From: Mycoplasmataceae bacterium
GTDB taxonomy: Bacteria; Bacillota_I; Bacilli_A; Mycoplasmatales; Mycoplasmoidaceae
DNA length: 64,000 nucleotides
Direction: 5' to 3'
Assembly (NCBI GenBank): GCA_031265955.1
Contig: JAISBY010000010.1
Location: 310,001 to 374,000 of the forward strand
Position 1 is the first letter of the stretch, and every line of letters begins with the position of its first letter. Positions 10,690 through 10,872 of this stretch are shown one piece after another. The notes below the pieces were generated by a model. The model saw nothing but the letters and a program-made list of their open reading frames with translations, ran no database searches and had not been told where the DNA came from. The translations under genes and the position numbers were made by a program.

Positions 10690-10770
10690 CTAAGTCAATT
10701 TTGCGCGCACGTGCGGTGTGTGTGTGTGTGTGTGTGTGAGTGTGTGTGTGAACGCTATCATATCTCTCAT
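10690..10770 (-). other. Leader ORF containing the CA repeat
   Basis: From ATG 10770, 11 nt after a TATAAT box, a 26-codon frame runs through the dinucleotide tract as alternating Thr-His codons and stops at TAG 10690-10692. If one CA unit were lost, the frame would pass the start of the lipoprotein gene and stop at a TAA about 26 nt inside it; if one unit were gained, it would end earlier at another TAA. It may be a regulatory leader peptide, or chance. Confidence 0.35.
10716..10750. repeat. (GT)n dinucleotide tract
   Basis: About 11 GT units, an AG interruption, then five TG units. On the minus strand this is a (CA)n run in the 5' leader of the lipoprotein gene at 9027-10592. It is the inverted partner of the (CA)15 run at 10843-10872. 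Such tracts change length by slippage during replication. Confidence 0.95.
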
Positions 10771-10781
10771 TACCAAAATTA

Positions 10782-10787
10782 ATTATA
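10782..10787 (-). promoter_or_regulatory. -10 box of the BspA-like lipoprotein gene
   Basis: A perfect TATAAT on the minus strand, lying between the two inverted dinucleotide tracts; no convincing -35 box was seen at 16-18 nt. The predicted transcript would start near 10775, contain the CA repeat and reach the lipoprotein ATG about 185 nt later. Confidence 0.55.
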
Positions 10788-10842
10788 GAGAGTTTTCTAA
10801 CAAAATCATAGATTTGTGGTAGCTATTCACCGAGAAAGTTTC

Positions 10843-10872
10843 CACACACACACACACACACACACACACACA
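10843..10872. repeat. (CA)15 dinucleotide tract
   Basis: Fifteen uninterrupted CA units. Relative to the minus-strand lipoprotein gene it lies upstream of the promoter as (TG)15. With the tract at 10716-10750 it forms an inverted repeat enclosing 92 bp. The remaining spacer 10873-11041 shows no gene; a weak CCCAT/ATGGG hairpin near 11007-11025 might end the coiled-coil gene. Confidence 0.95.

Follow-up and report, generated by a model that had tools for sequence, protein, structure and literature searches.

The closest described counterparts of the locus analysed here are the pil1 and pil3 pilus loci of Streptococcus gallolyticus, in which GCAGA repeats within a leader open reading frame (ORF) shift the leader stop codon with respect to a premature terminator (Danne et al., 2014; PMC3894217). 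Expression is low when the stop precedes the hairpin by 28 nt or more and high when it lies beside the hairpin, inside it or beyond it; removal of the pil1 hairpin raises expression and removal of the leader start locks it in the low state (PMC3894217). No further systems of this design were found in searches of the open-access literature. In pyrBI of E. coli, the leader ORF crosses the terminator and a translating ribosome blocks its formation, the outcome being set by UTP through polymerase pausing. Phase variation of the Vlp proteins operates via a poly-A promoter spacer. GAA repeats are associated with phase variation of Mycoplasma vlhA (PMC6258824) and AG repeats within a type III methylase ORF with phase variation in Mycoplasma (PMC3498834).

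The stretch of DNA analysed here (64,000 nucleotides, referred to as the window) belongs to a 981-kb metagenome-derived assembly of a gut-type mollicute. It contains a (CA)n tract that we interpret, with a probability of about 0.77, as a contingency locus: located in a leader-peptide gene, it would control the transcription attenuation of a BspA-like lipoprotein. As in pil1/pil3, a simple repeat lies in a leader ORF, repeat number would set the position of the stop relative to an intrinsic terminator and surface proteins are encoded downstream. The pil1/pil3 system has a pentanucleotide (GCAGA), a leader with a Shine–Dalgarno sequence and two pilus loci and occurs in Bacillota, whereas the mollicute system has CA or GA dinucleotides, an ATG almost at the predicted transcript start and ∼18 loci of several families, is read with code 4, occurs in Mollicutes and is known from sequence alone. 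As in pyrBI, a ribosome on the leader would prevent the terminator, but the input would be the inherited tract length and not UTP. In common with vlhA, Vlp and the type III methylase, it has hypermutable simple repeats at mollicute genes for surface proteins or modification; those repeats act at the promoter spacing, upstream of the promoter or in the frame of the gene itself, whereas here the repeat forms part of a leader ORF that precedes a terminator. The mechanism would be one already known from pil1/pil3, and what would be new in the mollicute system is its scale, the lineage, the repeat unit and the near-leaderless start.

Organization of the window locus

The locus reads along the minus strand in the order given by the initial annotation, each element of which was recovered at the same position: a perfect tract of 15 TG copies (10872–10843), 55 nt, a TATAAT −10 box of the leader promoter (10787–10782), the ATG of a leader ORF (10770), a (CA)n tract, the leader stop (10690) and the ATG of the lipoprotein gene (10592). 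The CA tract (10750–10716) lies inside this short ORF and comprises 17.5 copies with one CT interruption at 10740–10739; it contains no stop in any frame. In the present phase, the leader ORF (10770–10690, MRDMIAFTHTLTHTHTHTPHVRAKLT) ends with TAG (10692–10690), +26 after the tract. One additional CA unit would place the stop at 10677–10679 (+39 after the tract, ∼11 nt before the hairpin described below). Loss of one unit (or gain of two) would place it at 10565–10567 (+151), and the leader would then be carried across both the hairpin and the lipoprotein start, the latter as had been proposed.

The BspA-like leucine-rich-repeat lipoprotein gene (9027–10592, minus strand) is preceded by a Shine–Dalgarno-like AAGGGG (10599–10604) and encodes 521 amino acids in code 4, with nine TGA codons read as Trp. 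Its product carries a lipobox-like TQC at the N-terminus, matches Pfam LRR_5 in three stretches (E = 2.2e-29) and has 23 matches in its own genome, itself included. (TG/CA) tracts of at least six units number only 18 in the 981-kb genome, and no long dinucleotide tracts are reported in the 64 kb besides the two at this locus; the presence of two tracts of such length in the window is far beyond chance. Upstream of the locus, a 154-aa ORF without a Pfam match is located at 11042–11506, and similar sequence is found upstream of the cassette at C3:433121 and at C9:42893.

A predicted intrinsic terminator (10629–10666, minus strand), which is absent from the initial annotation, is located between the leader and the structural gene. 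It consists of an imperfect hairpin between the tract and the lipoprotein gene (10666–10637; −8.2 kcal/mol) followed by a T-rich tail (10636–10629), and the present leader stop is 23 nt 5′ of the hairpin. The terminator is weak in this copy, the 75-nt hairpin region folding no better than its shuffles (z = 0.0). The window copy may switch less frequently than others or may be decaying, the latter because its hairpin is weak and imperfect and its tract is interrupted.

We propose that transcription would begin just after the TATAAT, with the leader ATG within a few nucleotides of the 5′ end; the leader mRNA is probably leaderless or nearly so, because the ATG is so close to the −10 box. A ribosome would translate the leader into the CA tract, and a single 2-nt slip would alter the frame in which it leaves the tract. 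In the present frame, it would stop at 10690, short of the hairpin, the terminator would form and the lipoprotein is predicted to be OFF. With one CA unit fewer, the ribosome would cover the hairpin, no terminator would form, RNA polymerase would continue and the lipoprotein would be ON, possibly aided by the overlap of the leader with the lipoprotein start. No MutS was found in the genome assembly, so that slippage would be favored. Rho was likewise not found in the genome (the assembly being 89% complete) and intrinsic terminators should therefore carry the load.

A family of leader cassettes

A search for related loci with the lipoprotein over the genome contigs gave no match, after which the architecture was sought with a DNA pattern (TATAAT–ATG–CA tract); the stretches of the genome that were read are those around the tracts and around the BspA paralogues. 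Two of the 18 (TG/CA) tracts are ends of insertion sequences (IS) and the other 16 have CA on the sense strand of the next gene, with a TATAAT at most 80 nt upstream in 15 of them (2.7 expected). Fifteen of these sense tracts are leader cassettes and one (L047) is inside an acyltransferase-like ORF; its location in the N-terminus of that gene is that of a classical in-gene switch. Three more cassettes carry (GA)n, which brings the total to 18 (15 CA and three GA). The elements follow one another in the order TATAAT, usually 6–12 nt, ATG, 1–11 codons, tract, 25–50 nt, hairpin with T-run, Shine–Dalgarno sequence and gene. The tracts of the paralogues are 23–52 nt long, and the leader frame is open from the ATG to the tract at all 31 loci used in the frame analysis below. 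Three BspA paralogues have kept the leader ATG and the terminator and have no long tract; the attenuator therefore seems to be older than the tract or to outlive it.

The gene behind the cassette is almost always of a surface type and encodes either a BspA-like protein or a member of one of several families without a Pfam match, with an export signal or lipobox start recognized by eye. The exception (L044; G000:C2:109997–110038) is a small ORF behind a CA cassette that resembles, by eye, a RelB/DinJ antitoxin; the post-tract region of this cassette is shared with the one on contig C4 (L055).

Since the CA tract encodes (His-Thr)n ahead of a terminator, the cassette could also be an amino-acid-sensing attenuator, in which scarcity of His or Thr would stall the ribosome on the tract, as in his and thr attenuation. 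In the GA cassettes, however, which share this design, the tract encodes Arg-Glu, and the genes controlled are those of surface proteins of several families and not of biosynthesis, so that such sensing appears very unlikely.

Hairpin conservation and frame logic

Hairpin and T-run start at +25 to +50 after the tract at nearly all cassettes. The z-score of the 75-nt fold is not uniformly low, and covariation among the paralogues was therefore taken as the stronger test. In eight BspA-type loci, the hairpin pairing is kept despite sequence divergence, with 94% of the cells paired. Among these eight paralogues, 11 double-change cells are compensatory compared with 4.1 in shuffles (0 of 500 as high), and a control with slid pairing partners fails.

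Of the three frames that follow the tract, at most loci one or two end well before the hairpin and another runs through it; often, a frame stops precisely at the 5′ base of the hairpin. Repeat number thus decides whether the leader stop falls 5′ of the hairpin, inside it or past it, with the exception of three cassettes (L048, L056 and L057) that have no frame through the hairpin and only one ending at its base; in two others (L044 and L055), two of the frames are long and the hairpins weak. The pattern of two frames ending before or at the hairpin base and one passing through is present in 10 of ∼14 distinguishable groups, the grouping of loci being our own, compared with ∼0.34 per locus expected from dinucleotide shuffles. 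This pattern by itself constitutes moderate evidence, and the hairpin covariation and the bias of the present frames are stronger lines than the count of stop patterns.

The overlap between leader and lipoprotein that the initial annotation expected after loss of one CA unit holds for the window and does not extend to a general principle, the long frame of most paralogues ending before the gene ATG. It could be argued that the phase variation is translational only, with a long leader frame that overlaps or abuts the lipoprotein start, coupled translation and an incidental hairpin. The long frame does end past the gene ATG in the window and at L049, and about two nucleotides before it in four of the five loci of the related genome Roe453_bin32 (see below). 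In the present genome, however, most cassettes of the BspA type and of type II have a long frame that stops at +69 to +94, and the gene ATG follows at approximately +100 to +113; the cassette genes have their own Shine–Dalgarno sequences, and conservation of the hairpin and T-run with compensatory changes also argues against an incidental role. We consider purely translational control to be unlikely. Transcription attenuation is the likely switch, because the long frame usually stops before the gene ATG yet crosses the terminator.

If the frame were irrelevant, tract lengths should be random modulo 3. The bias of the present frames, which supports a role of the frame, was assessed over 31 cassettes (18 in this genome and 13 elsewhere). 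The leader stop is 17–57 nt upstream of the hairpin in 28 of the 31 assembled loci and the longest frame is present in three (P = 0.0024 for a random frame), while the frame that stops earliest is the present one in 13 of the 18 cassettes of this genome (P = 0.0009); both P values are approximate because loci within a genome are partly homologous, and the majority tract length given by a metagenome assembly can be wrong. Most of the stop-to-hairpin distances in mollicutes are 17–25 nt, just enough to clear the footprint of a ribosome.

CA and GA tracts are classical formers of non-B DNA, and they might act through Z-DNA or a triplex or be hypermutable relics with no switching role, in keeping with the three BspA paralogues that retain leader and terminator and lack the tract. 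Such an explanation leaves the frame bias of the lengths and the stop-to-hairpin spacing without a reason, as it does the identical position of the tract in cassettes of several protein families, and is highly improbable. On the basis of transcription attenuation, we read most of the cassette genes as OFF and few as ON. Those at C3:6603 (L045) and C3:260202 (L049) are predicted to be ON now, and that at C7:68798 (L057) is probably ON; under the pil1 rule, a frame that ends at the base of the hairpin would likewise be ON in this system.

Cassettes in other genomes

The TATAAT–ATG–CA tract pattern is present in several genomes of the same genus. It matches seven of 320 genomes of the order (three of 50 genera) and a reversed control pattern has no matches; the promoter spacing of loci found in this way is not independent evidence, because the pattern required that spacing. 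The two matches outside the genus are single in-pattern tracts and are candidates only; L116, with the same tract sequence as one of them, does not have the architecture. Many CA tracts of the sister species were rejected as leader cassettes, being IS-end tracts or inside genes, and most matches outside the mollicutes were discarded as chance or in-gene tracts.

The Mycoplasmataceae MAG Roe453_bin32 has five loci, with stops at +11/+12, +15/+16 and +85 to +98 and a hairpin at +33 to +64. In its leader promoters (L104, L110, L115, L119 and L123), GAAGT-TATAAT is immediately preceded by a run of ∼15–18 T, which might serve these genes as a second switch by slippage. At L110 (7109–7323), two leader cassettes face each other around a shared hairpin-like segment with no gene between them, perhaps as a relic of recombination between inverted cassettes. 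One CA cassette is present in Pcl387_bin181 and GA versions in two more species. In Nm470_bin117, a CA tract (L121 266–324) is located near the start of an HsdM-like ORF (by eye), as in a classical in-gene phase-variable type I methylase. The 18 cassettes of the present genome and those of the sister species strongly support the original suggestion of phase variation by a CA tract in the leader ORF.

An uncultured Clostridium MAG that uses code 11 (SRR15194757_bin.8) contains three homologous loci (L105, L109 and L124) in which a Shine–Dalgarno sequence, an ATG and (CA)12–13 are followed by a hairpin (between +74 and +123) and by genes judged by eye to be pilin-like. Two of the frames end early and the third enters the hairpin and extends to +104 or +116 (shuffle P of 0.05–0.10 for each locus). 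The bacterium is unrelated, and as judged from the sequences this form is convergent.

Origin of the upstream tract

The upstream (TG)15 is the subterminal (CA)15 of an IS66-like element end (10819–10872, plus strand) with the terminus GTAGCTATTCACCGAG, and lies outside the switch. A complete element with the same end and (CA)12 is located at G000:C3:461394–463217 (L054 1395–3218), upstream of a type-II surface-protein cassette; it is flanked by an 8-bp target duplication (GAATTCCA) and encodes an IS66 transposase (DDE_Tnp_IS66, 3.1e-28). The shared terminus, the transposase and the duplication assign the TG arm to IS66, of which a single end is left in the window. Ends of this type with a CA tract recur in sister genomes, several times in G021, where most lie close to the ends of contigs, and also in G024 and G027; they might be a source of microsatellites near genes.

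The two tracts are indeed inverted complements, as first noted, with arms 92 nt apart, and were suggested to recombine or to extrude as a cruciform, thereby flipping or blocking the promoter. The TG arm, however, is an IS66-like end that recurs together with its (CA)n at unrelated positions and also in other species, and arms of this type are found at only two of the 18 cassettes. No inverted promoter segment was found among the cassettes, in which all promoters face the gene. Control by promoter inversion or a cruciform therefore has no comparative support and is barely credible; since the TG arm is the end of an IS66-like element, the inverted pair is best regarded as an accident of insertion.

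Implications

Through the leader cassettes, a mechanism so far proven for two pili of Streptococcus would apply to a whole set of mollicute surface genes across the genome, and a simple rule would allow the ON or OFF state to be read from the DNA. Attenuators of this kind are predicted to escape phase-variation surveys limited to genes or promoter spacers. In the broadest form of the proposal, to which we give an even chance, the mollicute would possess an antigen-switching system that spans its genome: ∼18 surface genes of several families would share a portable cassette, composed of a near-leaderless leader ORF, a T-free dinucleotide tract, frame-coded stops and a terminator, that sets transcription by ribosome position, with few genes ON at once and each reprogrammed by a two-base slip. 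Clostridium and Streptococcus would each have evolved the design on their own, and it may be common yet have escaped notice.
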